NCBI GenBank assembly: GCA_035559535.1
Contig: DATMBG010000043.1
Location: 62,001-126,000 of the forward strand
Origin: Candidatus Limnocylindrales bacterium
Lineage (GTDB): Bacteria; Moduliflexota; Moduliflexia; Moduliflexales; JAUQPW01
Direction: 5' to 3'
Length of the DNA: 64,000 nucleotides
Both the position numbers and the translations under genes were made by a program. Numbering within the stretch: the first letter of the stretch is position 1; each line of letters opens with the position of its first letter. Of this stretch, positions 4,539-59,275 are shown piece after piece. Below the pieces are notes generated by a model. The model made no database searches. It was given only the letters and a program-made list of their open reading frames with translations, and was not told the DNA's origin.

Positions 4539-5249
4539 TTATTTTTCAGGTTTTTCAAGCAAATGGGCTATCAGCTTTCTCGGCTCATCCTTATCCCACA
4601 ACCGTGCTCCCATAGCTGCCCCGATAATAAACCCCTCTGGATCAATCAAATACGTGACAGGAATTCCTCTTACTGCATAAGCCTTCGCTACCCTTTGCTC
4701 AGGATCCAAAAGTGCCTGGTAGCTGAGCTTGTGCTCCTCCATATAAGATTGAACTAAGTGGGCCGAGTCTCCCTGGTCGACGGAAATAGCCAAAACAATT
4801 AACCCTTTATCCTTAAATTCTTGATAAAGTTTTTCAATGGTTGGTTTCTCAGCGCGGCACGGGCCGCACCAGGTAGCCCAGAAGTTTAAAAATACCAGTT
4901 TACCCCGAAACTCCTTTAAACTAACCTCCTGCCCCTCCAGGTTTTTCAGGGTAAAGTCTGGGGCTTCAATTTTCTCCTTGAACTTCTGCACACCAGCTTT
5001 AACAAAGAGATCTTCTTCGGCTGAAGCTAAGAGCGTCTCGACTTCCACGGCCTGGGACTCATCTACCTGGAGACCGGCCGGTCTTTTGTCTGTTGTCCCT
5101 TGTCGGTTCTCCGTTGTCTGTTGTATCCATACCTTGACCTCTGACAACGGGCCTTTAATAACTGACCAGGAACCACTGATCAGCAACAAAAGAGCTATTC
5201 CACTGACCAGGATCAAGATAAAAATCCTTACTATGATTTTTTTAAGCAT
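4539..5249 (-). CDS. TlpA/ResA-like periplasmic thioredoxin
   Basis: 236 residues. An N-terminal membrane anchor (IFILILVSGIALLLLISGSW) is followed by a linker and then a full thioredoxin-like domain from about residue 93 (FTLKNLEGQEVSL). It has the active site WATWCGPC and the cis-proline region GIPVTYLIDPEG. Such proteins reduce disulfides of cytochrome c or copper-centre proteins, fed by a CcdA-type transporter, and one is encoded just downstream. The linker includes a 14-residue QT/TEN/RQG segment encoded by six 7-base words (5082-5123), an in-frame repeat insertion between anchor and domain. Confidence 0.88.
   Translation of the reverse strand: MLKKIIVRIFILILVSGIALLLLISGSWSVIKGPLSEVKVWIQQTTENRQGTTDKRPAGLQVDESQAVEVETLLASAEEDLFVKAGVQKFKEKIEAPDFTLKNLEGQEVSLKEFRGKLVFLNFWATWCGPCRAEKPTIEKLYQEFKDKGLIVLAISVDQGDSAHLVQSYMEEHKLSYQALLDPEQRVAKAYAVRGIPVTYLIDPEGFIIGAAMGARLWDKDEPRKLIAHLLEKPEK
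5082..5123. repeat. heptad array inside the TlpA-like gene
   Basis: Six 7-base words (TCTTTTG, TCTGTTG, TCCCTTG, TCGGTTC, TCCGTTG, TCTGTTG) total 42 bases, so the frame is kept and 14 residues are added to the linker. The words match those in the intergenic array at 45885-45933. Confidence 0.75.
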
Positions 5250-5512: not shown

Positions 5513-5821
5513 TTAGGAAAAGCAGATTACGAGCTGAGGGGGTTTAAAAAGGGAATCGATAAATTCTGATAAATGGGGGATAATATCGGCAGGGGGTAAG
5601 AAAAAGAGAAGGATTAAGCCGAATAACATAAAAAGACCAACTTCAAGGACCAGGGTGTTGGACGATAGATTACAGTTTAAAGAAGGTAGGGAATGATAAG
5701 GCTCAAAGGTAGAAGAGCAGCACAGGTGCATAAATAAGGTTAGGTACATGCAACTAATCCCGGCAATCAAGAGCGCTAAGAGACCTATGCTTATTTGTTT
5801 TCTCCGATTTATCTGATCCAT
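5513..5821 (-). CDS. two-TM small membrane protein (metal-efflux-associated family, divergent member)
   Basis: Starting at ATG 5821 (MDQINRRKQISIG) the product is 102 residues: a first membrane segment, an outer loop of about 35 residues with CC and a further Cys, a second membrane segment and a proline-containing tail (LFKPPQLVICF). The layout (TM, Cys/His loop, TM, Pro tail) matches the small proteins at 9362, 9799 and 34365, though sequence identity is low. An upstream TTG start overlapping the LysR gene is possible but adds a polar stretch I do not trust. No strong ribosome site is seen. It follows the LysR gene on the same strand. Confidence 0.5.
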   Translation of the reverse strand: MDQINRRKQISIGLLALLIAGISCMYLTLFMHLCCSSTFEPYHSLPSLNCNLSSNTLVLEVGLFMLFGLILLFFLPPADIIPHLSEFIDSLFKPPQLVICFS

Positions 5822-8545: not shown

Positions 8546-8722
8546 TTACTTCAACTCAGAAAGTTCTCCCTTCAAAATGCTGGTTACCAACAGGTTCCAT
8601 TCTTCTTTGGAGAGTTTTACAAGATTTCCTTCCTCTCCAATATGGACTTCATCTTCATAAACTGTTACCGTTGGACAGGCACTACAGGCAGGGCACAGGG
8701 AGATAATTTGCTTAGCCTTCAT
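8546..8722 (-). CDS. 58-residue Cys-rich mini-protein in a metal-regulator operon
   Basis: A short gene starting MKAKQIISLC. Its ATG at 8722 has AGGAGGG eight bases upstream, and it overlaps the end of the MerR gene by 11 bases, implying translational coupling. Near the N-terminus it has CPACSACP (with the earlier Cys, C-x2-C-x2-C spacing), then VTVYEDEVHIGEEGN and a helical C-terminus (LSKEEWNLLVTSILKGELS). Being made with a heavy-metal MerR regulator suggests it binds or buffers the metal sensed, which is inference. No family recognised. Confidence 0.7.
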   Translation of the reverse strand: MKAKQIISLCPACSACPTVTVYEDEVHIGEEGNLVKLSKEEWNLLVTSILKGELSELK

Positions 8723-9197
8723 GGGATTTCCCTCCTTTCTTTTTTAGATTATTCACCGTTTGGGTTTGTTCACGACCAGGAACCGGGGAATACCTCTGGA
8801 TCTGGGGACAGATAGTTTCTCTTTCAGAAGTCCTCTCGTCTGAACATTCCCACCGATATAGAAGGTCTCGGAGATCCTGTTGGAGCGTCAGCAGATCTTT
8901 GATCTGAATATCAATTTCAGAGATTTTCTGACGGATCATCTTTTGAATATGGGAACAAGGGGTTTGTCCTCTATGATAAATGTCCAGAATCTGTTTGATC
9001 TCCGAAAGTGTTAATCCCAGTCTTTGAGCCTTTTTAATAAAAACTAACCGCTCCTGGATATCCGGGTCGTAAATCCGGTATCCGGACTCCGTTCGTATCG
9101 GCTGAGGAAGAAGTCCCAGTTCTTCATAGTACCGAAGCGTTTTTGGTGAAATTCCTGTGTTTTTAGCTACTTGTCCAATATAAAGTAGTTTCTCCAT
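8712..9197 (-). CDS. MerR-family heavy-metal-responsive regulator
   Basis: 161 residues from ATG 9197 (MEKLLYIGQVAKNTGISPKTL); the open frame extends upstream, but this start fits the family. It has the MerR winged helix with TLRYYEELGLLPQPIR and SGYRIYDP, then a dimerisation coiled coil. Cysteines at about 81 (TPCSH), 118 (WECSD) and 130 (TICPQ) match the metal ligands of MerR/CadR/ZntR-type sensors. These proteins twist a promoter with a 19-20 base spacer when metal binds. Just such a promoter lies directly upstream (9227-9257). It probably controls itself and the Cys-rich mini-protein, and perhaps the divergent efflux operon. Confidence 0.88.
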   Translation of the reverse strand: MEKLLYIGQVAKNTGISPKTLRYYEELGLLPQPIRTESGYRIYDPDIQERLVFIKKAQRLGLTLSEIKQILDIYHRGQTPCSHIQKMIRQKISEIDIQIKDLLTLQQDLRDLLYRWECSDERTSERETICPQIQRYSPVPGREQTQTVNNLKKKGGKSHEG

Positions 9198-9226
9198 AGC
9201 TTTCCCCGATCTTCTGGATACTTTTA

Positions 9227-9257
9227 AGATAAACCTTCCCCTATACGGGAAGGTCAA
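9227..9257 (-). promoter_or_regulatory. MerR-type promoter/operator, copA-like
   Basis: On the minus strand: -35 TTGACC (9257-9252), a 19-base spacer, and -10 TTATCT (9232-9227). The spacer holds the perfect dyad ACCTTCCC-N6-GGGAAGGT (9233-9254). The long spacer with central dyad is the hallmark of MerR-activated promoters. The sequence is strikingly like the E. coli CueR-regulated copA promoter (TTGACCTTCC...GGAAGGTTTA, from memory), pointing to copper or a similar soft metal. Confidence 0.75.
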
Positions 9258-9297: not shown

Positions 9298-9325
9298 TTG
9301 ACAGATGGCAGATAAATTCTATCTT
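9298..9325 (+). promoter_or_regulatory. possible sigma-70 promoter for the small-protein/czc operon
   Basis: TTGACA at 9298-9303 and TATCTT at 9320-9325 with a 16-base spacer, 36 bases before the ATG at 9362. The -10 match is only moderate. Confidence 0.35.
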
Positions 9326-9361: not shown

Positions 9362-9661
9362 ATGCTTACACATTTTGTCCGTTACAGGTTTCTTTTAGTG
9401 GGTGTTATTCTGGTCTTTACAGTGGGATATCTGTGGTGTTTTATAAACCCGGAAGAAATAAAGGGCGAGCAACATAACGACTCCCACGGATCGGGTAATA
9501 ATTTCTGCTTTCACTTCTATAATCAAACGGTTCATATTGAGATACCTCTCATCTTCCTTTCTATCATCTTACTTTTCACCTTTTTCCTATCAAATCTGGG
9601 TGAAATCCTTCCTGGTTTTACCTCTCCTCTCATCGAACCACCTAGATTCCTCCCCTTATAA
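9362..9661 (+). CDS. two-TM small membrane protein (metal-efflux-associated family)
   Basis: 99 residues. TM1 is FLLVGVILVFTVGYLWCF, then an outer loop NPEE...EQHNDSHGSGNNFCFHFYNQ rich in His, Asp and Cys, then TM2 IFLSIILLFTFFLSN and a tail LGEILPGFTSPLIEPP. The protein at 34365 shares YRFLL, VGYLWCF-NP-E, HNDS, FCFHFY and GEILPGFT-PLI-PP, strongly supporting both as real. The loop and its place just before a CzcB-CzcA operon suggest a metal-sensing or accessory role, comparable in position to CzcI-like proteins but not obviously homologous. The ribosome site is weak. Function unknown. Confidence 0.7.
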   Translation: MLTHFVRYRFLLVGVILVFTVGYLWCFINPEEIKGEQHNDSHGSGNNFCFHFYNQTVHIEIPLIFLSIILLFTFFLSNLGEILPGFTSPLIEPPRFLPL

Positions 9662-9798
9662 GGCTTTTTAGTGTCTTTTTCCGGAAATTTCCCCTTTTTT
9701 GTTTAATAGAATTTTTATCTGGGGAGGCTTTTAACTTAGATCTGTTCTGAATAAGGGGTTTAGCTTTAAGAAGCCCCTCTTGCAGAGGCATTCTTTTT

Positions 9799-10104
9799 AT
9801 GGATAAGTACCTTAAATTCTTGATAGGTGGGGTTATTTTAATTCTTTTTGTCACGGTGATAGGATGTTTTTTTGATTCTGAAGAACTAAGCTTGCAAGGG
9901 CCTAATCATGGATCTCTTCACTCCCCAGATGGATTTTGTACCAGTGTAGCCATCCCTTCGACAGCCTGTAAGGAACCCTTTTCTTTGTTTTTACTTTTCA
10001 CTGTTTTATCCTCCCGTTTGGGTTCTATCCTGCCTGGTTTCTCCCGTCCTCAAATTCATCCGCCCGATATAATTCTAACTCAGCCATCACTATCCGATTT
10101 TTAG
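9799..10104 (+). CDS. two-TM small membrane protein (second family member)
   Basis: 101 residues. TM1 is FLIGGVILILFVTVIGCFF, followed by a loop with NHGSLHSPDGFC, then a second segment FSLFLLFTVL and a tail LGSILPGFSRPQIHPPD that aligns with the PGFT-PLI-PP tail of the proteins at 9362 and 34365. It lies between that first copy and the CzcB gene, probably in one transcript. The ribosome site is weak (GAGG). The loop keeps His, Asp and Cys residues but is otherwise diverged. Confidence 0.65.
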   Translation: MDKYLKFLIGGVILILFVTVIGCFFDSEELSLQGPNHGSLHSPDGFCTSVAIPSTACKEPFSLFLLFTVLSSRLGSILPGFSRPQIHPPDIILTQPSLSDF

Positions 10105-10191: not shown

Positions 10192-11823
10192 ATGAGCAAA
10201 AAAATAGATAAATCTAGACTTTTTTATCTCTTGTTATTCATAGTCCTGATAGGGTTTTTGATAGGTTACTCTGAATCTCAAAGAACTTCCACGAGTAGAG
10301 TGACTGACCCTCAAGGTTCCGTAACGGAATCCCTATCGGTTACAGAAAAAAATGGGGATAACCATCTGGATAAGCATAATCCTTCAGAGGAAACCCGGCC
10401 AGATCACCATCATGAAAATTCGGATGCCTGTGGTGCCGGGAATACCCGGGCAATTCAATTGAGCCAGCAGGCCATGACCAGCCTGGGAATTCAAGTTGCA
10501 GAGGTCGATATCCGAACCCTTGTAAAAGTGGTCGAGGTACCTGGAATTATCAAACTTCCTCCTCAGCGTATGACTGGAGTGAGCCCTCGGATTTCAGGCC
10601 GGGTAGAAGAAATTCTGGTCAAGCCGGGAGATAAAGTGGAAGTGGGACAAAAACTGGCTACGCTTCGAAGCCTGGAAATTGAAAACCTCCATGTAGAATT
10701 GACCGAGGCTACTCATCGGCTCAAGGCTTTGGAAGCATCTCTGACCCTCCGCCGGGAGGTACTTCAGCGGGCCATTGGAAACGAACTGGAGCGAAATCGG
10801 ATTGAGTTGATCAATGCCAGCAACAAAGTCAAACTGGCTAAACAGAGCATGGAGCGGGCTAAAAGTCTTTCTGATAAGATTCTTCCGGCCAAGGAAATTC
10901 AACAGCGAGAGTCAGAATACCTGATGGCCTTAGGAGAGTTAGAAGGCGTGAAGAAGAAGTTAAGGCTCTTAGGACTCTCAGATAAAGAGATTGACCGATT
11001 GAACTCAAAGGCCGATGGCAAATCGGCGATAGACAGTCTTTCCCTTTCTCCAAAGGAGCTTATTAAGAAGTTCACCCCCCTGGAGAGTAATGAAGCTCTC
11101 AATGAACTCCTTAATCAGGAGGCCGAATATCGGAGTCTTCAGGTAGAAATAGAAGGAAAGAAACAGCGGCTTGAGGTTTTAGGCCATCCTCCCCATCCGG
11201 GTCATCCGACCAAAGATGAAGCTATGGTTGATTTAACCTCTCCTTTAAGCGGAACTGTAACCAGCGTGGACGCAACATTAGGGATCATTGCAGAGCCCGG
11301 GAAAGTTCTCTTCCAGATTGTAGATCCTTCGGTGGTTTATGTGGAAGGAGATGTTCCGGTGGAAAATGTAGCTCTTTTCAGGCAAGGTCAGGAAGTAAGG
11401 GTTCGGGTAGCCAGTTATCCGGATGAGGTTTTTCAAGGTAAAGTCAATTATATATCGGATGTAGCCGATCCGGTAAAACGGACGATCCATATCCTGGCCG
11501 AGGTTCCCAATCCAGATCGGAAACTAAAACCAGAGATTTTTGCAACCCTTACGGTAGTTGTAGAGAAAGCCGTGGAAGCCCTGGCCGTGCCGAAAGAGTC
11601 TCTCCTCACCGAAGGGGTTGAGCGATACGTATTTGTCAAAAATGGTACGACTCTGGTTAAACAGAGTGTTGTAACCGGAATCAGCGATGATCAATATGTA
11701 GAGATCAAAGATGGGCTTTTCCCGGGCGATGTTATTGTTACCAAAGGAGCTTATGAGCTTGGCCTGGCGAGTACTCCCAAAGCAGTTCCTGTTGGAACGG
11801 ATGGGCATGCACACACTCATTGA
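10192..11823 (+). CDS. czcB: RND efflux periplasmic adaptor (CzcB-like)
   Basis: 543 residues. An N-terminal membrane anchor (LFYLLLFIVLIGFLIGY) is followed by a polar His-rich segment (HLDKHNPSEE, RPDHHHENSDAC) likely to bind metal. The HlyD core then follows: barrel-sandwich start ISGRVEEILVKPGDKVEVGQKL, a long alpha-helical hairpin, the second lipoyl half DLTSPLSGTVTSVDATLG, and beta-barrel domains ending EGLFPGDVIVTKGAYELG. The tail ends GHAHTH. CzcB-type proteins link the inner-membrane pump to an outer-membrane channel. The pump gene follows 146 bases downstream; a CzcC-type channel is at 15955. The His clusters favour zinc, cobalt, cadmium or copper as substrate; which one cannot be told. 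Confidence 0.9.
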   Translation: MSKKIDKSRLFYLLLFIVLIGFLIGYSESQRTSTSRVTDPQGSVTESLSVTEKNGDNHLDKHNPSEETRPDHHHENSDACGAGNTRAIQLSQQAMTSLGIQVAEVDIRTLVKVVEVPGIIKLPPQRMTGVSPRISGRVEEILVKPGDKVEVGQKLATLRSLEIENLHVELTEATHRLKALEASLTLRREVLQRAIGNELERNRIELINASNKVKLAKQSMERAKSLSDKILPAKEIQQRESEYLMALGELEGVKKKLRLLGLSDKEIDRLNSKADGKSAIDSLSLSPKELIKKFTPLESNEALNELLNQEAEYRSLQVEIEGKKQRLEVLGHPPHPGHPTKDEAMVDLTSPLSGTVTSVDATLGIIAEPGKVLFQIVDPSVVYVEGDVPVENVALFRQGQEVRVRVASYPDEVFQGKVNYISDVADPVKRTIHILAEVPNPDRKLKPEIFATLTVVVEKAVEALAVPKESLLTEGVERYVFVKNGTTLVKQSVVTGISDDQYVEIKDGLFPGDVIVTKGAYELGLASTPKAVPVGTDGHAHTH

Positions 11824-11832
11824 GAGAGACGC

Positions 11833-11952
11833 GGGGACAGAAAGATATAAGGACACGGAGTTTTGGGATACGGAGACAGGGGGACGTGGCGACACCGGGC
11901 TATATCCCCAAGTCTCCATGTTTCCCAGTCCCAAGTTCCCGCGTTTCCATAC
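11833..11952. repeat. mirrored octad array, 15 words, between czcB and czcA
   Basis: Exactly fifteen 8-base words: a purine arm (GGGGACAG, AAAGATAT, AAGGACAC, GGAGTTTT, GGGATACG, GAGACAGG ...) and a pyrimidine arm (TCCCCAAG, TCTCCATG, TTTCCCAG, TCCCAAGT, TCCCGCGT ...). It fills the intercistronic gap. Confidence 0.8.
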
Positions 11953-11969
11953 CCCTGCATTGTGAAGTT

Positions 11970-14900
11970 ATGTGGGCTAAAATTATCGAGTTTTCACTTA
12001 AAAATAAACTATTTGTTCTGATAACAGCAGGTATTACTCTCATCTGGGGTTACAACCTTTTCCAGAAGATTCCTGTAGATCTTTATCCGGATATCAATAA
12101 CCCCCGGGTAACCATTTTAACCGAAGCGCCTGGATGGTCTCCTGAGGAGGTAGAGGCTTTAGTGACCTTTCCCCTGGAAAGTGTTTTCAATGGAACCCCC
12201 TTTGTGACCCGGGTTCGCTCTTCTTCGGGAATCGGGATTTCTGTGGTGTTTGTTGAATTTGAATGGGGAACGGATATTTTCAAGGCCCGACAGTTGGTTG
12301 CAGAAAAGCTTCAGACGGTAAAATTACCAGCCGGTGTGGAAGCCCCCTTCATGGCCCCTATTACCTCCAGGTTAGGTGAGATTGTAGAATATGCTCTAGA
12401 AGATAAAACCGGAAAGTATTCCCCCATGGATTTGCGGGATGTAGCGGATTGGATCATTCGGTTTCGGTTAAAATCCATCGGAGGGATTGCCAATGTAATC
12501 AATCAAGGAGGACTTCCCCGGCAGTACCAGGTTCAGGTGAGCCAGGATAAGCTGTTGGGCTATGGACTCAGTTTGATGGAGGTTCGGGAGGCTCTGGAAA
12601 AGGGAAATATGAATGCCTCGGGCGGGTTTCTTTTAACTCCCACCCAGGAATACTTAATCCGAGGGTTTGGGCGTGTTCAGGAGGTAAGTGACATTGAAAA
12701 CACGGTTATCACCACCAAAGAAGGTGGAATACCTGTCTTAATCAAGGATGTGGCCACCGTCAAAATAGCAGGACCTGCCATCCGTCGGGGAGCAGGAACT
12801 TTAAACGGCCAGGAGACGGTATTGGGGAAGATAAGTAAACAACCTGACACCAATACCCTTACTTTGACAAAAAAAATTCTGGAAGCTTTCAAGGAGTTGG
12901 AGAAATCCCTCCCCGAGGGGATTGTTATCAAACCCGAATATCTTCAATCGGACCTCATTGAACGTGCCCTGGCTACCGTCAAAGAAGCTCTCTTAGAAGG
13001 AGGTATTCTGGTCGTTGTTATTATTGTGGTTTTTCTGTTCAATCTTAGAACTTCCCTCATCAGCCTGACCGCGATTCCCCTTTCATTTGTCTTAACCTTG
13101 ATGATTCTCTACGGGTACGGATTGAGTATCAATAATATGACTCTGGCCGGGTTGGCCATTGCTGTAGGAATGGTTGTGGATGATGCCATCATCGATGTAG
13201 AGAACATCTTTCGACGCCTGAGGGAATATTTCTTCGGTACAGATCGGGCAGGAACAGGACAGGTTCCATGCCCTGGGGATACCCATAACAGGGCTTTTAC
13301 GTTACTATCTAAAATGGCCCAAACTCCCGGTGAGGTTGTTTTGAAGGCTTCTAACGAGATTCGAAGCGCAGTCGTCTTCGCGACCCTCATCATCATCCTG
13401 GTTTTTATTCCCCTGTTTACCCTGGAAGGGATTGAAGGTCGATTGTTTTATCCCCTGGGTCTGGCCGTAGTCATTTCTATGGCCGCTTCTCTGCTGGTAG
13501 CCCTGACGGTCACACCGGTGTTGAGCGATTTGATGTTAACAAAACCCAAGTATCTTAACGAACGGGAAAGTCCTCTGGTTCGTTGGCTTAAAAAAAGATA
13601 CCGTTCCACCCTCCATAGGGTCCTTAAAAAACCCAGACAAGTTCTGATTCCCATTATTCTCCTATTTTTAGGTTCGTTGGTTTTAATTCCGTTTATGGGT
13701 CGGGAGTTTCTCCCTATTGTAGACGAAGGGACTTTGTTGGTGAATGCAGTACTACCCCCGGGAACTTCCTTAGAGCAAACTCTGCAGGTCGGAGTACAGA
13801 TTGAGAAGGCTCTCCATGAGTTTCCCGAAGTAGTTTCTACCACTAACCGTCTGGGTCGAGCCGAAGAAGATGAACATGCCGAAGGGGTTAATACCTCTGA
13901 AATTTTGGTAAGTCTCCTCCCGCCAGAAAAACGAAAGCGGTCCCGAGAAGAACTTCTTACTGCCATGCGGGAACGGCTCAAGGAGTTTCCAGGGGTTCTC
14001 ATTACCATCGGACAACCCCTTCAACACCGTATTGATCATTTACTCTCTGGGGTCAATGCCCAGGTTGCCATCAAGCTTTTTGGTAATGATTTGAATGTCC
14101 TTCGGACCAAAGCGGAAGAGATTCATCGGGTTGTTTCTACCGTTCCAGGAGTTGCGGATCTCTTTGTAGAGCAACAGGTGGAGGTACCTCAGCTCAAGAT
14201 TCAGGTTGATCGAAAAGCTGTGGCTCGTTACGGCTTGACTATCGCAGACATCTCCCATTTTATTGAAACCGCTTTTAAAGGAGAAGCGGTAAGCCAGGTT
14301 CTCTTGGGACAACGGCAGTATGATCTGGTTGTGATCCTGGATGAAAAGAGTCGGGCGGACCTGGAAAAGCTCAAGAATCTGATTATACAGACCCCAACGG
14401 GATCTCGGGTTTCTTTGGAACAACTGGCAACGATACAGATAAACACCGGCCCTAATACCATCAATCGGGAAAATGTAGCCCGACGTATAGTGATTCAGAG
14501 TAACGTATCCGGGCGAGATCTGGGAGGATTTGTCCAGGAAGTTCAGCAGAAGATCGCAGATCAGGTAAAGCTCCCGGAAGGTTATTTTATTATCTATGGA
14601 GGGCAATTTGAAAGCCAGCAGCGTGCCTTCAAACGATTGGCTATCGAGTTTGTTCTGGTAACCCTTGTTATGTTCAGCTTGCTGTACATCAGCCTTCGCT
14701 CCGCCCCGCTGGCTATCGCCGTACTCCTGAATCTTCCTTTAGCTGTGGTAGGGGGGATTATCAGTGTATACCTGTCCGGTGGCGTACTTAACGTTTCCTC
14801 CCTGGTAGGTTTTATCTTGCTCTTCGGTATTGCCGTCCGAAATGGAGTACTTATGGTTTCCCATATTAACGATCTCCGATACCACGAGGGATTGGAATTG

Positions 14901-15179
14901 GATAAAGCTATCATACAAGGAGCCGAGGAGCGAATGACGCCGGTGTTGATGACGGCGCTGGCAACGGCTATGGGAATGGTTCCTTTGATCTGGGCACAGG
15001 GATCTGGATCAGAACTTCAGAAGCCTCTGGCTACAGTTATTGTAGGCGGAACCCTCTCGGCAACTGCTCTAACCCTGTTGGTATTACCTGTCTTGTACCG
15101 CCTGATAGAGGGACGTGGAAAGAAGGTAGAAAGTAAAAAGTCAGGAACTGGCGATCAGTTCACAGTTGTTAGCAGATAA
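11970..15179 (+). CDS. czcA: RND heavy-metal efflux pump (CzcA/CusA-like)
   Basis: 1069 residues from ATG 11970 (MWAKIIEFSLKNKLFVLI); upstream frame is repeat DNA. It has the RND layout: TM1, large periplasmic loop (DLYPDINNPRVTILTEAPGW), TM2-6 with AVGMVVDDAIIDVENIFRRL, a second loop, and TM7-12 ending with GIAVRNGVLMVSHINDL and PLATVIVGGTLSATALTLLV. The acidic residues of the TM4 motif serve proton coupling in heavy-metal RND pumps. It works with the adaptor at 10192 and a TolC-type channel to move metal ions from periplasm or cytoplasm to outside. The ribosome site is poor, perhaps because the octad array sits immediately upstream. Confidence 0.93.
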   Translation: MWAKIIEFSLKNKLFVLITAGITLIWGYNLFQKIPVDLYPDINNPRVTILTEAPGWSPEEVEALVTFPLESVFNGTPFVTRVRSSSGIGISVVFVEFEWGTDIFKARQLVAEKLQTVKLPAGVEAPFMAPITSRLGEIVEYALEDKTGKYSPMDLRDVADWIIRFRLKSIGGIANVINQGGLPRQYQVQVSQDKLLGYGLSLMEVREALEKGNMNASGGFLLTPTQEYLIRGFGRVQEVSDIENTVITTKEGGIPVLIKDVATVKIAGPAIRRGAGTLNGQETVLGKISKQPDTNTLTLTKKILEAFKELEKSLPEGIVIKPEYLQSDLIERALATVKEALLEGGILVVVIIVVFLFNLRTSLISLTAIPLSFVLTLMILYGYGLSINNMTLAGLAIAVGMVVDDAIIDVENIFRRLREYFFGTDRAGTGQVPCPGDTHNRAFTLLSKMAQTPGEVVLKASNEIRSAVVFATLIIILVFIPLFTLEGIEGRLFYPLGLAVVISMAASLLVALTVTPVLSDLMLTKPKYLNERESPLVRWLKKRYRSTLHRVLKKPRQVLIPIILLFLGSLVLIPFMGREFLPIVDEGTLLVNAVLPPGTSLEQTLQVGVQIEKALHEFPEVVSTTNRLGRAEEDEHAEGVNTSEILVSLLPPEKRKRSREELLTAMRERLKEFPGVLITIGQPLQHRIDHLLSGVNAQVAIKLFGNDLNVLRTKAEEIHRVVSTVPGVADLFVEQQVEVPQLKIQVDRKAVARYGLTIADISHFIETAFKGEAVSQVLLGQRQYDLVVILDEKSRADLEKLKNLIIQTPTGSRVSLEQLATIQINTGPNTINRENVARRIVIQSNVSGRDLGGFVQEVQQKIADQVKLPEGYFIIYGGQFESQQRAFKRLAIEFVLVTLVMFSLLYISLRSAPLAIAVLLNLPLAVVGGIISVYLSGGVLNVSSLVGFILLFGIAVRNGVLMVSHINDLRYHEGLELDKAIIQGAEERMTPVLMTALATAMGMVPLIWAQGSGSELQKPLATVIVGGTLSATALTLLVLPVLYRLIEGRGKKVESKKSGTGDQFTVVSR

Positions 15180-15954: not shown

Positions 15955-17472
15955 ATGGGTTCAGACAAGTGGCTGGCTAATGTATACTCTGTACAAAAAG
16001 ACGTGGTCGGCATCGTTCTTCCACTAAAGACTGAAAACCTTTCTAGATTTATTGAGCAAATTCAATGGATGAAGTTCTATGGCAAGTCCATATTCTTAGC
16101 AATTATCCTGGTGTGGTATATGATGTCTTTCTTTCCAGAAGTGGGAGCTCAAGAAAACCCACAAACCGTAACCTCTGAGCCCACCTTACGCCTTGAAGAC
16201 CTGGAACAGAAGGCCTTGCAGAATAACCCGACTCTCGTTCAGGCGGAGGCTGTCATCCGCGTAGCCGAAGGACGAAGGATTCAGGCAGGTCTATACCCCA
16301 ATCCAGTGATGGGCTACAGGGGTGAACAGCTCAGCTTGCGGGCTCCTTCAAAGACCAGTGAGCATATGTTCTTCCTGGAACAGCGTATCATTACGGCTGG
16401 AAAACTCAGGAAAGGTCGCAATGTTTTTGCTCAGGAAAAGGCTCAGGCTCAAGCTGAAGCAGAAGCCCAGAAACTTCGGGTGCTCAGTACCGTTCGTCTT
16501 CTCTATTATGAAGCCCTGGGGGCCCAACAGTTGATCGAGTTGCATAATCAACTGGTTAAAATCGCCCGGGAAGCAGTGGATATTTCTGAGCAGCTTTTCA
16601 ACGTGGGTCAGGCTGATCAACCAGACGTCCTTGAGGCCCAGATTGAGGCACAGAGAGCCGAATTAGGTTTCAGGATAGCTGAAAATGATCGAGAGCGTAT
16701 CTGGCAGCAATTAGCAGCCGCTGTGGGTGATCCATCCCTCAAGCCGACTCGATTGGTAGGGAATCTGGAAGAAGAGATACCGATGCTTAACCGGGAGGAA
16801 ATCCTGGCCGCTCTTCTGCGTGAGAGTCCCGAGATCAAGAAGGCACAGGCCAGAGTGGAGCAGGCCCGGGCAGATTTGGAGCGGGCCCGGGCAGAGCCTA
16901 CTCCGGATCTCCTGGTGCGGGGTGCGTTTGGATACAACTTTGAGCCGTTGGAAGCACTGGGTGGGCCTACAAGACTGGAAGGAGCCATTGAAGTAGGGGT
17001 CCGGGTCCCACTTTTTAATCGTAACCAGGGGAATGTGGCAGCAGCCCGGGCTGAAGTCGATAGGGCCGAGCAGGAAGTGAAGCGTTTGGAGTTAGCTCTG
17101 CGGGCAAATCTGGCCTTGGCTTTTACACGTTACCTCAATGCCCTAAGTATGGTACAGCGTTATCAGAAGGATATTTTGCCACCGGCCCAAAAAGCCTATG
17201 AACTTTATTTAACGAGGTTTAGAGAGATGGCTGTAGCCTATCCTCAGGTGCTTATTGCACAGCGTACCCTGTTCCAGGTGCGTGTTGAATACGTAAGAGC
17301 CCTTGTGGATCTATGGCAGAATGTGATTCAACTCCGAGGATTGCTGCTGGCAGGGGGACTGAATGCACCGGACATGTCTCCAACTGGAGGCGAAATCCAG
17401 ACCGGTGAGACCCCGGGGAGCAGTCCCGGGATGCCAAGCCCTAGAATCCACGAGGTGCAGGAACAACGATGA
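15955..17472 (+). CDS. czcC: outer-membrane efflux channel (CzcC/TolC-like)
   Basis: 505 residues. A strong AAGGAGG precedes ATG 15955, but the natural signal sequence (FLAIILVWYMMSFFPEVGAQ) begins about 45 residues in, so a 38-residue leader precedes an internal Met (MKFYGKS). Either this start is real and the signal is internal, or translation starts at the second ATG. The mature protein has the two TolC-family repeats: LRLEDLEQKALQNNPTLVQAE and the conserved GLYPNPVMGY, then the second-half repeat with VGVRVPLFNRNQGNVAAARAE. The tail contains TPGSSPGMPSP, encoded over a CCCGGG...CCCGGG palindrome. It completes a CzcCBA set with 10192 and 11970. Confidence 0.9.
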   Translation: MGSDKWLANVYSVQKDVVGIVLPLKTENLSRFIEQIQWMKFYGKSIFLAIILVWYMMSFFPEVGAQENPQTVTSEPTLRLEDLEQKALQNNPTLVQAEAVIRVAEGRRIQAGLYPNPVMGYRGEQLSLRAPSKTSEHMFFLEQRIITAGKLRKGRNVFAQEKAQAQAEAEAQKLRVLSTVRLLYYEALGAQQLIELHNQLVKIAREAVDISEQLFNVGQADQPDVLEAQIEAQRAELGFRIAENDRERIWQQLAAAVGDPSLKPTRLVGNLEEEIPMLNREEILAALLRESPEIKKAQARVEQARADLERARAEPTPDLLVRGAFGYNFEPLEALGGPTRLEGAIEVGVRVPLFNRNQGNVAAARAEVDRAEQEVKRLELALRANLALAFTRYLNALSMVQRYQKDILPPAQKAYELYLTRFREMAVAYPQVLIAQRTLFQVRVEYVRALVDLWQNVIQLRGLLLAGGLNAPDMSPTGGEIQTGETPGSSPGMPSPRIHEVQEQR

Positions 17473-17628: not shown

Positions 17629-19056
17629 ATGGATAAAGGCAGGCGTAATTTCTTGAAAAGTTTGGTACTTCTTGGAGCTACAGGGTTATTGACAGGGCGA
17701 AAAGCCATAGCCCAGAACACTCCTTCTAAGAGAAGGATATCATCCAGTCAAGCAACTATCCGGCCACCAGAAGGATTTGTTCCGGTTATCACGCCCGATG
17801 TTCCTAAACTTCCCTACACACTGGAGAATGGTATCAAGGTTTTTCATCTGATTGCCGAGCCGGTCCGGCAAGAGTTTATTCCGGGGAGAGTCTTTGATAT
17901 TTGGGGTTACAACGGCCATGTACCAGGGCCTACCATCGAGGTAATGGAAGGAGATCGGGTACGCTTCCTCTTTCATAACAAATTACCCGAGGCCACGACG
18001 ATACACTGGCATGGTCTGGAGGTCCCCCTGGAGATGGATGGTGTGCCGGCTATCAGCCAACCTTTGGTTAAACCGGGTGAGATGTTCACTTATGAATTCA
18101 CCCTTCATCAAAACGGTACTTTCTTCTACCACTCCCATATGGCAATGCAAGAAATGATGGGCCTCATAGGACTTTTTATCATTCATCCCAAAAAACCTTA
18201 CCAACCCCCTGTTCATAAGGATTTTGGGCTGATCCTTCAGGAGTTTGCCGTGTTACCCAATAATACCATTCCCAACTCCCTTTCCATGGAATTTAACTGG
18301 CTGACCATAAATGGCAAAGCGGGGCCCGCCACGACTCCTATGATCGTCAAATTGGGAGAACGTGTTCGCATTCGTATGGTGAATCTGGGTATGAACCATC
18401 ATCCCATGCATATACATGGGAACACGTTCTATGTTACCGGAACAGAAGGAGGACGTATACCAGAATCTGCCTGGTACCCTGGAAATACCGTGCTGGTCGG
18501 CGTGGCCCAGGCTCGTGATATTGAGTTCGATGCGAAGTATCCGGGGGATTGGCTACTGCACTGTCACCTCCCTCATCACATGATGAACAATATGGTCTCT
18601 ATGGTAGGCCCCATAGCACACGCAGGTTCTGGGATGCCTACCGGTATGGGAATGGAAGAAGGGATGGGGATAATCCGGCAAGGGAACGCTCTGGATGAAG
18701 ATCTTGGACCTGCTTTGGGACGTGGTACCGGCATGGTCACCCGAGAAAAACCGACTTCTCATCTCGTAGGTGTTCAGAGCACCGAACCCCACCAGGGTCA
18801 CGGGACTCCTACCGAAAATGGGAACAAAAAACGGGTACCCGGATTTCCGCAAGACATGTTCATGCTTATGGATGAAGCCGTTGCTAAACCGGAGACCTAC
18901 GGGTTACGCCCGGGATGGTCAGGCGGCATACAGGGTATGATGACCTTAGTCCGTGTCCTTCCACCAGATATGTACGAAAAAGTGATGGCTATGATGAAAG
19001 AGAGACAGACGAAACAACCCCCCCAACAGCCAGCTCCTCTTCACAGGGATCATTAA
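17629..19056 (+). CDS. TAT-exported multicopper oxidase
   Basis: 475 residues; AAGGAGG precedes ATG 17629. The twin-arginine signal is GRRNFLKSLVLLGATGLLTG. All four copper-binding segments are present: TIHWHGLEVP, FFYHSHMAMQ, HHPMHIHGNTF and LLHCHLPHHMMNNM. Such enzymes oxidise Cu(I) or organic substrates in the periplasm, reducing oxygen to water, and protect against copper. After the oxidase fold there is a tail of about 140 residues rich in Met, Gly and His (MPTGMGMEEGMGII; GFPQDMFMLMDEAV; GGIQGMMTLVRVLPPDMYE). The even pattern suggests a functional copper-binding extension. It stands between the CzcC gene and the copper ATPase group. Confidence 0.92.
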   Translation: MDKGRRNFLKSLVLLGATGLLTGRKAIAQNTPSKRRISSSQATIRPPEGFVPVITPDVPKLPYTLENGIKVFHLIAEPVRQEFIPGRVFDIWGYNGHVPGPTIEVMEGDRVRFLFHNKLPEATTIHWHGLEVPLEMDGVPAISQPLVKPGEMFTYEFTLHQNGTFFYHSHMAMQEMMGLIGLFIIHPKKPYQPPVHKDFGLILQEFAVLPNNTIPNSLSMEFNWLTINGKAGPATTPMIVKLGERVRIRMVNLGMNHHPMHIHGNTFYVTGTEGGRIPESAWYPGNTVLVGVAQARDIEFDAKYPGDWLLHCHLPHHMMNNMVSMVGPIAHAGSGMPTGMGMEEGMGIIRQGNALDEDLGPALGRGTGMVTREKPTSHLVGVQSTEPHQGHGTPTENGNKKRVPGFPQDMFMLMDEAVAKPETYGLRPGWSGGIQGMMTLVRVLPPDMYEKVMAMMKERQTKQPPQQPAPLHRDH

Positions 19057-20298: not shown

Positions 20299-22968
20299 AT
20301 GGCCCAGGTGAAAGATCCAGTATGTGGTATGCAGGTGGAAGAGAATATGGCTGCAGGTACTTCCACCTATGACGGGACCGTCTATTATTTTTGTTCGGAT
20401 AAATGTCTGGGTGAGTTTAAAGCGAACCCTGGGGAATATCTTGAAAAAACTACTGAAGAAGAAAATAAAGACGCTGCCGAAACCACGGTCCATCTACCTA
20501 TCGAGGGTATCGATTATGCCAGTTCGGCGCAGGCCCTTGAACGTGAACTTAAAAAGGTCAAAGGTATAAAACGAGTATTCGTTAATCCGATTACAGGAGT
20601 GGCCAGTATAACCTTTGATCCCCATGAGACCGGAATCGCGAAGTTTGTCAAAGTGATCCGACAGAATGGGTATCAAGCCGGATTTGTGAGCACAGTTATA
20701 CCGATCTCTGGGATGTATTGTGCTTCCTGTGTGGTCGCTATTGAAAAAGCGCTGAAAAAAACGCCCGGTGTCCTGACAGCTTCGGTTAACCTGGGAACGG
20801 AATCAGCCCATGTAACCTATTTACCTGCCAAGGTAGATATGGCGGCCCTACGCGAGGCCATCGAGTCTACCGGATATCATGTCAAGTCTATCTCTGGCCT
20901 GGCACAAAATGCAATTACTGAGGAGGAACAGAATAGGGTTGAAGAATATCAAACTCTTATGCGCAAATTTTGGTTTGCAGCTATTGTGTCGCTTCCTGTG
21001 ATTGTTTTCAGCTATCCAGATTTGATTCCTGGCCTGCGGGAATGGATGCCCAGGGGGAGCATCGAACGACGTATTGTGTGGGGACTGTTGGGAGTGTTGA
21101 CATTACCTGTGATGTTATGGTCCGGTTCCCAGTTCTTCATAGGGATGTGGGAGGCTTTGAAACATCGCTCTGCAAACATGCATACCTTAATTGCCATGGG
21201 CATTTCTGCTGCCTTTCTCTATTCTGTGGTAGCTGTGGCATTTCCTGGCTTATTTCCCAAAGAGGAACTGGCCGAAGTATTCTGGGATGTAAGTGTAGTT
21301 GTAACGGCCTTAGTTGTATTAGGTCTGGCCCTTGAGGTAAAAGCCAAGGGTAAGACTTCCGAAGCAATCAGGAGGCTCATCGGCTTGCAGGCTAAAACTG
21401 CGCGGGTCATACGGGATGGTAAGGAACTCGACTTGCCGGTAGAAGAAGTTGTGGTAGGAGATATAGTCGTGGTGCGACCGGGTGAGAAGATTCCGGTGGA
21501 TGGAACGATCATTGAGGGAAGTAGCGCCGTGGATGAATCCATGATCACCGGTGAGTCCATTCCTGTAGAGAAGCATGTAGGTGATGAGGTGATTGGTGCT
21601 ACCCTCAATAAAACCGGTAGCTTCAAATTTCGGGCTACTAAGGTAGGTAAGGATACAGCACTTGCCAATATCATCCGTATGGTACAAGATGCTCAGGGTT
21701 CTAAGGCTCCTATTCAACGTGTGGTGGATACCGTTTCTGGCTATTTTGTACCGGCCGTGATGATTCTCGCGGTGCTCGCCTTCATAATCTGGTACGATTT
21801 CGGTCCTGAACCGCGTATCATCTATGCTACCATCGTGTTTGTTACCACACTCATTATTGCCTGCCCTTGTGCTTTAGGTCTTGCCACGCCTACCTCACTC
21901 ACTGTAGGTATCGGCAAGGCTGCAGAAAATGGTATTTTGATTCGTTCTGGTGATGCCTTGCAAACCACTAAGGCGTTGGATACGATCGTATTAGACAAGA
22001 CGGGTACCATTACCCAGGGTGAGCCTGCCCTGACCGATGTAATTCCGGTAACAGGCTTTCCAGGGCTCAAGCCAAGCTTTGATGAAGCCGAAATCCTACG
22101 CCTTGCGGCTTCACTGGAACGTGGCTCAGAACATCCCCTGGGAGATGCTATTGTCAAGGCCGCAAAGGCAAAAGACCTTCCACTTATGGAAGCATCGGAG
22201 TTCGTTGCTGTTCCAGGTCAAGGAGTTAAGGGTCGAGTAGGTAAGCAGGAGGTACTGCTGGGTAATATCCGGCTCATGCAGGATCACCACATTGATATTA
22301 AAGCCCTTTCCAGTTATTGGGAGCGATTAGCCGGGGAGGGCAAAACAGCCATGTATGTGGCTGTAGATGGTCAGGCGGTAGGATTGGTAGCCGTAGCGGA
22401 TACCATCAAGCCGGATTCCAAGACTGCCATTTCTGCCTTGCGCAAGTTAGGATTAGAGGTCATCATGATCACCGGGGACAATCAACGTACAGCTCAGGCT
22501 GTTGCTCGACAGGTTGGCGTGGACCGGGTACTGGCAGAAGTCCTACCCCAAGACAAAGCCCATGAAGTACAAAAACTACAACTGGAAGGTAAGACAGTGG
22601 CTATGGTGGGTGATGGGATCAATGATGCTCCGGCCTTAGCCCAAGCAGATGTGGGAATAGCCATAGGTACTGGTACGGATGTGGCCATAGAAGCCAGTGA
22701 CATTACTCTCATCAGAGGAAGTCTTATGGGAGTGGTAACAGCTATTGAGATCAGCCGTGCAACGATGCGCAATGTATATCAAAACCTGTTTGGTGCTTTC
22801 ATTTATAATGTGTTGGGTATTCCCATTGCCATGGGAGTACTTTACCCATTTTTTGGTATCTTACTTTCTCCCTTGATCGCCGCAGCAGCCATGGCTTTCA
22901 GTTCTGTAACGGTGGTTAGTAACGCCAACCGTTTACGCTACTTTAAACCGAAAGGAGGAGTCCTATGA
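20299..22968 (+). CDS. copA: copper-translocating P1B-type ATPase with YHS and two HMA domains
   Basis: 889 residues; AAGGAG precedes ATG 20299. Order: a YHS metal domain (DPVCGM, FCSDKC; Cys 9, 32, 36), an HMA fold lacking its Cys pair (GIDYASSAQ near residues 70-78), an HMA with intact GMYCASC (Cys 141/144), then eight membrane helices. The ion site is [11 protein letters not shown], followed by phosphorylation motif [19 protein letters not shown], and [16 protein letters not shown]. The C-terminal YN...[11 protein letters not shown] pattern matches the Cu+ (P1B-1) class. It exports Cu(I) from the cytoplasm using ATP. Its stop overlaps the next gene by 4 bases, forming a tight operon. Confidence 0.93.
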
Positions 22969-34278: not shown

Positions 34279-34307
34279 TTGACGAGATCCAAATAGATGG
34301 TTATACT
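34279..34307 (+). promoter_or_regulatory. sigma-70 promoter for the small membrane protein / CzcC pair
   Basis: TTGACG (34279-34284), a 17-base spacer and TATACT (34302-34307), 57 bases before the ATG at 34365. Both boxes are close to consensus with ideal spacing. Confidence 0.65.
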
Positions 34308-34364: not shown

Positions 34365-34649
34365 ATGCCGCGGAATTCTAGACCTTACAGATTTCTTTTA
34401 ATAGTAGCTATTTTGCTATTTTCCGTGGGATACCTGTGGTGCTTTCTAAATCCCCATGAATGGAGAGATATAGAGCATAATGATTCTTCTAACTTAGGAA
34501 ACGGCTTCTGTTTTCATTTTTATTATCAGCATCTTCATCTGATGGTCCCCGGAGTATTGGTTTTTATAGTAGTACTTTCTACGATCTCGCTTCCAACCCC
34601 TGGCGAAATCCTTCCCGGTTTTACCTATCCTCTCATCCAGCCACCTTGA
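34365..34649 (+). CDS. two-TM small membrane protein (metal-efflux-associated family)
   Basis: 94 residues. TM1 is FLLIVAILLFSVGYLWCFLN, a loop HEWRDIEHNDSSNLGNGFCF, a second segment VLVFIVVLSTIS, and the tail GEILPGFTYPLIQPP. It is clearly related to the protein at 9362 (shared YLWCF-NP-E, EHNDS/QHNDS, FCFHFY, PGFT-PLI-PP). A sigma-70-like promoter lies upstream and an orphan CzcC-type channel gene downstream, again next to an efflux gene. No ribosome site is seen, so translation may be weak. Function unknown. Confidence 0.7.
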   Translation: MPRNSRPYRFLLIVAILLFSVGYLWCFLNPHEWRDIEHNDSSNLGNGFCFHFYYQHLHLMVPGVLVFIVVLSTISLPTPGEILPGFTYPLIQPP

Positions 34650-34939
34650 TCCCTTTGAGGGGAGATACTTATCCCATTTACCAGGGTCCAAAGCCTTCGA
34701 AGAATTAAAATAGAAGTAGTTGTTTTATAACAATCTTCCTGTTTAAAATTAAAAGTCTTTCTACAAAAGAAAGTTACGCTTATTTGCTGTGAAACTATAA
34801 CCTGAAGGGTTGGGAACCCTACCTAGGGTTGGTCTTTAATTGTTTTTTCATAAAAGCACAAAGAGCTCTGTCCTGAATTTTGGAAAGGGAACCCGGATGC
34901 TAATTCCCCGGTATTCCTTCGACTAAATCAGTACAAAGC

Positions 34940-36292
34940 TTGGCGTGTGAACCCTATCTTGTGAAGCGTGTTAAACCCTTTTTTTCAATCTTATTCTCTG
35001 TACTGGTGAGTCTGAACGGTTTGTTGAACGATCCATTACAGGTAATGGGTCAGGAGGTTCCTAAACTCAATCCCACTAAGTCTTATACTTTAGATGAACT
35101 TTTGACCTTTACCATGGAGCATAATCCGGAAATATTGGCAGCTAAGGCAGAAATCGATATAGCCAGGGGAGAGTTGATAACCTCGGGACTCCTTCCCAAT
35201 CCAAGAATTGAGTTTACGGGAAGAAATCAGCGTATTCCGGATGGAGATTTGTCCGGGTTTAATTATGATGTGAACTTAAGCCAGGAAATTCCCCTGGGTG
35301 GGAAAATAGGACATCGCAAACGGGTGGCCCAATTAAAACTGGAAAAAGCCCATTTAGATTTTCAGAATGTGGTTCGGCTAAAAACGGCCGAGGTCAAAAA
35401 AGCTTTTTATGCCGTGTTATTTAATCAAAGGCGACAGGAGTTAATAAAGGAAGTCCTGGAGGTTAACAGGATTATTTTAGATATTGCTAACAAACGCTAT
35501 AAAGCCGGAGATATCCCTCTCATGGGAGTCAATCTGGCCTCTATTGAATTACAGAGGACAACTACGGAAAGTCTAAACCTTCAAAATGAGCTCAGTCAGG
35601 CGAATTCCGAGCTTTTAATGGCTCTGGGGGTTATCCTGGATTCCGGGGGGCCTTCCGGGGTGGAGGGTCTCAAAGTGGAAGGGACCCTCTCTAAGGAAGA
35701 GATTCAGTTTAATCTGACCGAATTAATCCAATTTGCTCTGGCCAATCGGCCGGATTATAAAAGTCTTCAAGTAGCCGTAAAAGCAGCAGAGGCCGATATT
35801 TCCCTGGCCCGGGCAGAAGGAGTTCCGGATATCGAGGTTGGGGGCACTTTTGAGCGAGAGTTAGGAAATGAGCGCCGTATAGGGGGGTTTGTTTCTATTC
35901 CTCTTCCTCTCTTTAACCGGAATCAGGGGGAGATTGCTAAGTCTCTGAGCCGCAAGGATCAGGTAAGCCTGGAATTGGCAGCTTTGAAAAATAGGATCGA
36001 GCAAGAGGTACGAATCGGATTTGCCAAGGTTGAAACCGGTAAGAAAAATCTGGATGTGTTTCAGCGAGGTCTTATCCAACTGGTCCGAGAAAATCTGGAG
36101 TTAAACCGGAAAGCTTTCCAGGCAGGGGAGATTGAATTTCTGGAAGTTGCTCGGGCAGAAGAAGACTTCATTCGAACAAATACCCTCTTTTTAGAAGCCC
36201 TCTATAACTATAATCTGGCTTTGATCGAGCTGGAAACGGCTATGGGAAGTCAATTTACCAGGGCTTTGAGGGGTACCGAAGAGAAGAAATAA
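34940..36292 (+). CDS. outer-membrane efflux channel (CzcC/TolC-like), stand-alone
   Basis: 450 residues if the TTG at 34940 is used; GTG at 34961 (VKRVKPFFS) is an alternative, and no strong ribosome site is seen. A signal segment FFSILFSVLVSLNGLLN is followed by the TolC family repeats: YTLDELLTFTMEHNPEILAAK, SGLLPNPRIEFTGRNQR, then GGFVSIPLPLFNRNQGEIAK in the second half. No pump or adaptor lies beside it. It may serve the second pump at 56153, which lacks its own channel gene. The preceding small membrane gene is probably in the same transcript. Confidence 0.85.
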   Translation: MACEPYLVKRVKPFFSILFSVLVSLNGLLNDPLQVMGQEVPKLNPTKSYTLDELLTFTMEHNPEILAAKAEIDIARGELITSGLLPNPRIEFTGRNQRIPDGDLSGFNYDVNLSQEIPLGGKIGHRKRVAQLKLEKAHLDFQNVVRLKTAEVKKAFYAVLFNQRRQELIKEVLEVNRIILDIANKRYKAGDIPLMGVNLASIELQRTTTESLNLQNELSQANSELLMALGVILDSGGPSGVEGLKVEGTLSKEEIQFNLTELIQFALANRPDYKSLQVAVKAAEADISLARAEGVPDIEVGGTFERELGNERRIGGFVSIPLPLFNRNQGEIAKSLSRKDQVSLELAALKNRIEQEVRIGFAKVETGKKNLDVFQRGLIQLVRENLELNRKAFQAGEIEFLEVARAEEDFIRTNTLFLEALYNYNLALIELETAMGSQFTRALRGTEEKK

Positions 36293-54692: not shown

Positions 54693-54891
54693 AAAGAAAA
54701 CTCCTATATTCTTCTAGTATACTTCGTGGGAATTATAGAATAAAACTGCGTGAGACCCAGTTACAACTATAAACGATAATTCAATACAAAAATTCTTGCA
54801 AGTGGAAGATGTAAGAGATTCTAGAATTGATAATTGACAATTAACCTTAGATAGGTGATAATTTTCCATGGAGGGGGTTATAAAGATTTAC

Positions 54892-56118: not shown

Positions 56119-56152
56119 GTGAAGAACTTTACCCGAATAATCCTTTTTACCT

Positions 56153-59100: not shown

Positions 59101-59275
59101 GGAACCCGGTCGGGAGTTGGAACAACCTATGGCAGTTATTATTTTAGGTGGACTCGTCACCTCTACTTTACTCAATATGATCGTTATTCCGGCCCTTTAT
59201 TTCAAATTCGGAGAGCGAACTTCCAGGCCCCTTCAAAAAGAACAGGCTTCCCGATCTATCCAACCCGTTTACTAG
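56153..59275 (+). CDS. RND heavy-metal efflux pump (CusA/CzcA-like)
   Basis: 1040 residues, twelve membrane helices and two periplasmic loops. TM4 contains IGEVVDDAIIDVENIFRRL, like the pump at 11970 (VDDAIIDVEN), so both belong to one heavy-metal subfamily. Other marks: LDVFPEFAPPQVVIQTEAPG, NIMQFLSERIDEVISGTTAQ and GITTRNGIMLISHYHHL. It exports metal ions with the lipoprotein adaptor encoded 34 bases upstream. Substrate not determinable. The ribosome site is weak. Confidence 0.93.
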   Translation: MLNHIILWSLHNRVVVLVLAGILFGYGLFAAKTAPLDVFPEFAPPQVVIQTEAPGLSPDEVEALVTIPLEQEINGTSNVVSVRSSSAVGLSVITVVFTDQTNVITARQLIAEKLSLAASRLPQGVGSPEMAPITSSSSTILMIGLTSKSLPPMELRTIADWIIKPRLLAVPGIAKVVVYGGGVKQYQVLVSPKKLRTYGVTLQQVIEAARRSNSMAGAGFAFSPNQQLVIRGDGRINSLEDLKNTLIISRDGVPITLQQVAKVQFGPGIKVGEATINGEDGVILMISKQPWFNTLSVTESLEKALAELKEAIPQEVVLYPALFRQASFIETSIRNMTQALWQGGVLVAVVLFLFLFNTRSALISLIAIPLSLLVAIIILRLFGATLNTMTLGGLAIAIGEVVDDAIIDVENIFRRLRENRRAEYPRPSLEVVLRASLEVRNSVVYATFIVVLVFLPIFFLSGIQGKIFAPLGYAYILSILASLLVAILVTPALCLLLLPGAAQKVEESFLVRGLKQFYRPLISGVLRHPVRVILASLLLFMGALSLFPFLGGEFLPEFNEGNFIVHMAGLPGTSLEESVRMGKIVARELLKNPAVASVGQQAGRAELSDDTWGPDYSELVVALKDTELDMEEVLKDIRERLSRIPGFYFNIMQFLSERIDEVISGTTAQVVVKVFGPDLSVLREKVAEIQGVLAGIPGVADLQAEQQVDVPEIKIKFNRDMAARYGLSVGDLADIVTAIFRGVHVSQVYEGQRVYDLVVRYEDTSGFSLDEIQNTWIDTPSGSKIPLRKVAEISVENGPNTINRENVSRRMLVQCNVTGRDVVGFVNEVKQKVREKVRFPTGYYVEYSGQFESQEQAKREILLLGIVSAIGILLLLYMSFRSLGLSLLIMTNLPLALIGGIVAAFLSGGVLSVGSMIGFVTLFGITTRNGIMLISHYHHLLTEEGMSFGKELIIRGAMERLSPILMTALVTGLGLLPIAISVGEPGRELEQPMAVIILGGLVTSTLLNMIVIPALYFKFGERTSRPLQKEQASRSIQPVY

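Follow-up and report, generated by a model that had tools for sequence, protein, structure and literature searches.

Small proteins at the head of metal and redox genes

Within the window (the whole 64,000-nucleotide stretch of DNA that was analysed), four small ORFs, here called sp1 to sp4, are located in front of genes for metal-efflux or thiol-redox proteins. These ORFs and the genes around them are as follows.

9362-9661, plus strand: sp1, 99 aa, with TM1, a Cys/His loop, TM2 and the tail GEILPGFTSPLIEPP; first gene upstream of czcB/czcA
9799-10104, plus strand: sp2, a 101-aa paralogue immediately upstream of czcB, with the tail GSILPGFSRPQIHPP
34365-34649, plus strand: sp3, a 94-aa paralogue upstream of a czcC-like gene; di-proline (PP) at 34641-34646, followed at once by the stop codon
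5513-5821, minus strand: sp4, 102 aa, with the architecture of sp1-sp3; PP at 5537-5542
10192-11823, plus strand: czcB-like periplasmic adaptor (PF16576, TIGR01730), a proposed target
11820-15179, plus strand: czcA-like HME-RND permease (TIGR00914, 950 bits against a cut-off of 701; the true start is likely further in), a proposed target
15955-17472: OEP gene downstream of czcA
17629-19056: multicopper oxidase
20299-22968: P-type ATPase with YHS and HMA domains (CopA-type)
34940-36292, plus strand: OEP (czcC-like) outer-membrane efflux gene (PF02321, E 5e-56; dN/dS 0.12), the proposed target of sp3
4539-5249, minus strand: TlpA-like AhpC/TSA gene (PF00578, E 3e-32), the proposed target of sp4

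A sequence-only reading of this DNA had reported the four ORFs, with two TM segments in each, a tail of the form LPGF-x2-P-x-I-x-PP in three of them and the motifs VGYLWCF, HNDS and FCFHFY in the closest pair. All of this was recovered: the ORFs are present at these coordinates, each of sp1-sp4 has two hydrophobic segments, the first of them N-terminal (as judged from hydropathy alone), the tail is exact in sp1-sp3, and the three motifs are common to sp1 and sp3. The neighbours are likewise as it had described, with sp1-sp2 before czcB/czcA, sp3 before the OEP gene, and sp4 behind a LysR gene and near TlpA/CcdA-like genes. On its own strand, sp4 precedes the AhpC/TSA (TlpA-like) gene and then a DsbD_2 (CcdA-like) gene. 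The gaps measure 137 nt between sp1 and sp2, 87 nt between sp2 and czcB, about 290 nt between sp3 and czcC, and 263 nt between sp4 and the tlpA-like gene. The tandem pair sp1-sp2 heads czcB/czcA; a second HME pair (54868-59275) lies behind a divergent gene and has no such leader. Given that the multicopper oxidase and the CopA-type YHS/HMA ATPase adjoin, copper is suggested as the likely metal.

Metal pumps usually carry DFG-type or VDAA motifs at the position where the czcA-like permease (11820-15179) carries GMVVDDAIIDVEN.

Kinship and distribution

Homology among sp1-sp3 is clear: sp1 and sp3 are 57% identical (blastp E 8e-36), sp1 and sp2 match at E 1e-15, and the profile scores of sp2 and sp3 were reached by none of 2000 segment-preserving shuffles. 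For sp4, in contrast, the profile score against sp1-sp3 was reached by 311 of 2000 shuffles, and the best blastp E value was 0.65. The family of four claimed earlier therefore shrinks to sp1-sp3, and a single family including sp4, which has no detectable sequence kinship with the others, was rejected.

No Pfam or NCBIfam family was matched by sp1-sp4. Membership in DUF2946 (PF11162) was also rejected, as the Pfam scan gave no match at E values up to 1 and the PF11162 profile found none in genomes G000 and G001 at E values up to 10. The hallmarks of DUF2946/CruR, a CXXC motif and a C-terminal RAPP, were not found in sp1-sp3, whose Cys residues are single and separated and form neither CxxC nor CxxxC.

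A profile search of other genomes, suggested in the sequence-only reading, was run on 385 genomes and returned relatives in the genus only. The best match outside the genus (G262, E 8e-5), antisense to a regulator gene, was taken to be chance, and a match in G371 that sits inside another ORF was likewise rejected as a distant homologue. A scan with sp1 of one genome per species across 84,980 species, sensitive only to close relatives, recovered a single locus, again from this genus (contig JAUQPW010000010.1), and no relatives were found among the viral contigs of IMG/VR or the plasmids of PLSDB. In two other genomes searched from the order, no CzcA scored above the family cut-off. By sequence comparison, sp1-sp3 thus make up a new family; within the genomes, viral contigs and plasmids searched, it is restricted to a single genus, in a lineage that has been sampled sparsely.

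Selection and the proline tail

Synteny with a second genome from the genus (G001, contig C143) extends over the entire region, at about 93% identity (94% at the nucleotide level for sp1). All four frames are open there, with dN/dS of 0.43, 0.48, 0.25 and 0.22 for sp1-sp4, respectively, and sp1-sp4 are therefore real, selected proteins, although the constraint on sp1 and sp2 is only moderate. The sequence-only reading was to count as refuted if there were no homologues beyond this genome and no conserved loop residues among relatives, and on these points the outcome is mixed. Homologues occur in only one other genome, of the same genus, but C26, E32 and C49 are invariant in all six family copies, and the layout recurs before efflux operons of unrelated genomes (see below).

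The proline tail named in that reading turns out to be the key feature.

9638-9643, plus strand: PP codons of sp1, the proposed stall site, 5 residues before the stop and the family's last conserved position

The tails of sp1-sp3 end in IEPP, IHPP and IQPP, that of sp4 in FKPP, and 5, 12, 0 and 7 residues follow the PP in sp1-sp4. In G001, the sp2 frame is kept and its stop position after PP differs; sp3 ends with PP and a stop in one species and with PPRSL in the other. Between the species, the stops of sp2 and sp3 thus shift, while the residues up to PP are unchanged. Across the six sequences, 8 of 15 positions are invariant in the tail up to PP, 11 of 79 before it and 0 of 5 after it (Fisher P 0.002, tail versus before). 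Constraint that ends at PP is expected of a stalling sequence.

Such tails are uncommon in this genome, where 15 of 468 ORFs of at least 200 aa (3.2%) have PP in the last 15 residues. Small N-hydrophobic ORFs number 41 in the 826 kb covered, and only sp1, sp2, sp3 and two others among them have a PP tail; sp4 was left out of this count because a longer TTG-started ORF overlaps it.

The Cys residues lie 67 and 44 residues before PP in sp1, 65, 41 and 31 in sp2, 67 and 44 in sp3, and 70, 60, 59 and 44 in sp4, so that all four proteins have a Cys 41-44 residues before PP and a second at 65-70. The ribosome tunnel holds roughly forty residues. A Cys located 40-45 residues before PP would therefore have just emerged when the ribosome stands at PP.

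It is possible, if rather doubtful, that sp4 is functionally unrelated to sp1-sp3 and resembles them by chance, given its lack of significant sequence similarity and the occurrence of PP in the last 15 residues of about 3-6% of proteins. Against this, sp4 matches them in length and has two hydrophobic segments, a PP tail, and Cys residues at 44 and 70. All six frames were scanned for ORFs that carry an N-terminal hydrophobic segment, have PP among their last 15 residues and contain a Cys 38-48 residues ahead of that PP. In the window, sp1-sp4 and no others were returned; a further 762 kb of the genome gave four ORFs, mostly noise-like. The result favours placing sp4 with sp1-sp3 as one kind of protein, although the scan is not independent, its criteria being partly drawn from sp1-sp4.

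Leaders of HME-RND operons in unrelated genomes

Small proteins head HME-RND operons of unrelated genomes too, and several of them end in PP (DIFHPPPFS, LPKVYLSLFVPPDS, LIHAPPLV). Loci were taken from a list of HME-RND permeases of the 385 genomes, the first 40 in score order and later 40 more, and by rule a single N-hydrophobic ORF, 80-190 aa long and lying upstream of the final two genes that precede czcA, was counted as the leader. In the first sample, 13 of 25 leaders had a PP tail, compared with 12 of 194 other ORFs (P 5e-8), and in this sample together with three earlier leaders, the Cys residues cluster 40-45 residues before PP. The prediction for the second sample (PP tail, Cys at 40-45) was fixed before its loci were fetched. 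There, PP tails were found in 9 of 24 leaders versus 10 of 189 other ORFs (P 3e-5), and 7 of the 9 PP leaders had a Cys at 40-45, where 2.25 were expected from circular shifts (P 0.0012). Over both samples, the PP tail is present in 22 of 49 leaders against about 6% of the other proteins there, a count made without tree correction in which related leaders are possibly counted repeatedly. Of the 21 PP leaders having Cys, 15 carry one at 40-45, a ruler that was first noticed on a set including sp1-sp4.

The closest architectural match to sp1-sp3 seen outside this genome is the 89-aa leader of locus L147 (4186-4455 of the oriented locus), which ends in NLLYRPPKF and has two hydrophobic segments and Cys residues 43 and 40 before PP.

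A second class of leaders has no PP and ends, at the stop, in [IL]R[ST][VT]xLLI (L066, 2900-3346, plus strand; L117, L171, L182 and L185). Examples are IRSTILLI, LRTVVLLI, IRTVTLLI and IRSVVLLI. Each of these leaders has a pair of Cys residues 69-74 positions from its end, and none of 511 long ORFs ends in this way. This end may represent another, undescribed stalling tail.

Promoters, RNA structure and ribosome-binding sites

Three features of the nucleotide sequence flank the small genes.

9298-9325, plus strand: promoter-like TTGACA-16-TATCTT before sp1, with 10 of 12 matches; such sites are no more numerous than in shuffles; in G001, TTGACA is kept and the -10 is TATATT
34279-34307, plus strand: promoter-like TTGACG-17-TATACT before sp3, with 10 of 12 matches and identical in G001
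9662-9798, plus strand: sp1-sp2 intergenic RNA, in which GGGGAGG can pair with CCTCCCC of the sp1 tail codons

The sigma-70 promoter claimed earlier for sp3 is thus present as a site and conserved in G001, but such matches are no commoner here than in shuffles. Over the aligned stretch 9640-9815, identity to G001 is 96%, and a short hairpin at 9776-9788 contains the ribosome-binding site of sp2 and shows a compensatory difference there. The sp2-czcB spacer is poorly conserved (75%). Accessibility at the ribosome-binding sites of sp2, czcB and the tlpA-like gene is no lower than is usual in the genome (42nd percentile for the sp2 site, 46th for the tlpA-like site). As occlusion did not exceed background, masked ribosome-binding sites were dropped as proof of a CutF mechanism. 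The sp1 ribosome-binding site is unusually weak, with 4% of genes as weak or weaker; those of sp3 and sp4 are weak (22% and 17%).

Between sp3 and the czcC-like gene, at 34815-34830, a terminator-like stem AACCCTACCTAGGGTT is followed by GGTCTTTAATTGTTTTTT, and is a possible attenuator.

A MerR/CueR-type box, CCTTCC-N8-GGAAGG, is located at 9234-9253 and conserved in G001. It lies in the leftward promoter of a merR-like gene (8712-9257, with the likely true start at the ATG at 9197) and outside the promoter of sp1. Control of sp1 by a MerR-type operator was rejected, as this leftward promoter (TTGACC-20-TATCTT, minus strand) is a better fit for the box than the rightward one of sp1. Just behind merR, at 8546-8722 on the minus strand, a small unlisted ORF starts with MKAKQIISLCPACSACPTVTVYEDE and contains CxxCxxC, possibly encoding a metal-binding protein of the merR operon.

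A possible role in sensing metal during translation

CutF of Rhodobacter capsulatus (PMC9973294) and CruR (PMC9426467) are exported proteins whose genes come first in metal operons; they carry Cys metal motifs as well as a C-terminal PP, and both act in cis as nascent-chain metal sensors (PMC9973294, PMC9426467). CruR stalls ribosomes in vitro at its RAPP (PMC12992588), and a change of five residues in its Cys-RAPP spacing is reported to weaken the response (PMC9426467, PMC12992588). By analogy, we consider it probable that sp1-sp3 and, by architecture, sp4 are cis-acting leader proteins of the CutF/CruR-like kind, which would sense metal during their own synthesis. Among the roles offered in the sequence-only reading (metal sensor, pump accessory or assembly factor), the metal sensor is thus the best supported, though the sensing would probably be done in cis by a nascent-chain leader and not by a stand-alone protein.

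In the proposed mechanism, the N-terminal hydrophobic segment would bring the nascent chain to the membrane, and the ribosome would pause at the C-terminal PP, at a point where about 40-45 residues occupy the tunnel and the loop Cys has just left it. Metal binding would then alter the length of the pause and so decide the expression of the downstream czcB/czcA, czcC or TlpA/CcdA genes. As in CutF, the expected effect of metal on the efflux genes would be to turn them on. Opening of a stem-loop, a terminator or Rho are candidates for coupling the stall to expression.

Several observations speak against this reading. The IEPP, IHPP, IQPP and FKPP tails contain no arrest motif of a proven type and are unlike RAPP, sp1-sp3 lack CxxC and CxxxC, and the proteins appear to have two hydrophobic segments and not one signal peptide. 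In addition, the accessible ribosome-binding sites do not support the stem-loop mechanism of CutF, the sp2-czcB spacer is only 75% identical, and the dN/dS values of 0.43 and 0.48 for sp1 and sp2 are no more than moderately low.

Alternatively, the small proteins could be stable, trans-acting modulators of the pump in the periplasm or inner membrane, similar to CzcI, with a metal-binding loop that restrains or feeds CzcCBA. In Cupriavidus metallidurans, the gene for CzcI lies immediately before czcC, and the protein reportedly quenches CzcCBA for zinc and cobalt (PMC10127602); the sp genes occupy the same position, and their products have a Cys/His loop. We nevertheless regard this as unlikely, given that CzcI has no C-terminal proline motif (PMC9973294), which is the best-conserved part of sp1-sp3, and that sp4 precedes redox genes and not a pump. 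Moreover, a trans-acting protein needs no copy at each operon head, whereas sp1-sp3 are found one per metal-gene head, as expected of a cis element. Least probable of all is that these are small membrane proteins of unrelated role (assembly, or thiol or metal delivery) with the proline tail as a structural or interaction motif: two hydrophobic segments, purifying selection and the TlpA/CcdA-like genes next to sp4 would fit, but the tail lies at the extreme C-terminus, the residues past PP are free to change, and the Cys spacing recurs in unrelated leaders.

A broader picture can be put forward tentatively, as a generalization slightly more apt to fail than to hold. The HME-RND operons of many bacterial lineages would be headed by unrelated leaders with one physical rule in common: a metal-binding Cys that lies 40-45 residues ahead of a PP stall site at the C-terminus. 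The sp family would be a new arrest type among them (LPGF-x2-P-x-I-x-PP, two membrane segments), with tandem sensors before one pump and copies at other metal and thiol-redox operons. A large share of bacterial metal-efflux operons would then be under proteins that sense metal on the ribosome, recognizable by their architecture and the Cys-PP ruler even where no sequence similarity remains, and an arrest motif that is not of the RAPP type would be added. The small 'hypothetical' proteins found next to czc genes, commonly presumed to be accessories of the pump, would gain a concrete and testable role.

Comparison with known systems

CzcI resembles sp1-sp3 as a small protein immediately upstream of czcC/czcB in an HME-RND operon (sp1-sp2 before czcB, sp3 before OEP), but its description, as a protein without the proline motif that is reported to act on the pump, sets sp1-sp4 apart from it.

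The RAPP-like (RQH) arrest peptides that are encoded before secA, secDF and other genes share with sp1-sp4 a short upstream ORF, an N-terminal localisation signal and a C-terminal di-proline, and some precede metal or thioredoxin genes, as sp1-sp4 do (PMC10987492, PMC12992588). RAPP/RGPP proteins upstream of thioredoxin-domain genes (PMC12992588) are in the same setting as sp4. In the sp tails, R/Q/H-A/G-P-P is absent and a hydrophobic-x-P-P follows LPGF instead.

CruR of Bordetella pertussis (DUF2946/PF11162) is also encoded by an upstream ORF and has a Cys tens of residues before the C-terminal PP (48 from C93 to P141). The sp proteins differ in having no RAPP and no sequence match to it, and copper makes CruR shut off its own operon, an improbable response where efflux genes are concerned (PMC9426467, PMC12992588).

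CutF-like proteins form 29 published clusters, and their genes are most often located upstream of OEP genes (PMC9973294). Like them, sp1-sp4 are small, apparently exported proteins with a Cys/His motif and PP no more than 15 residues from the end, encoded first in a metal operon, and OEP and czcB/czcA are typical CutF-like neighbours. The published filters (under 150 aa, PP in the last 15 residues, a downstream gene; PMC9973294) retain all four, with N-terminal hydrophobicity used in place of a signal-peptide call. In contrast to CutF, sp1-sp4 have no DUF2946 match and have two hydrophobic segments, sp1-sp3 lack CxxxC, and no clear stem-loop masks a downstream ribosome-binding site at the sp loci. 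By their layout, sp1-sp3 appear to belong with the CutF/CruR-like leaders, as a variant with two hydrophobic segments and neither DUF2946 similarity nor RAPP.
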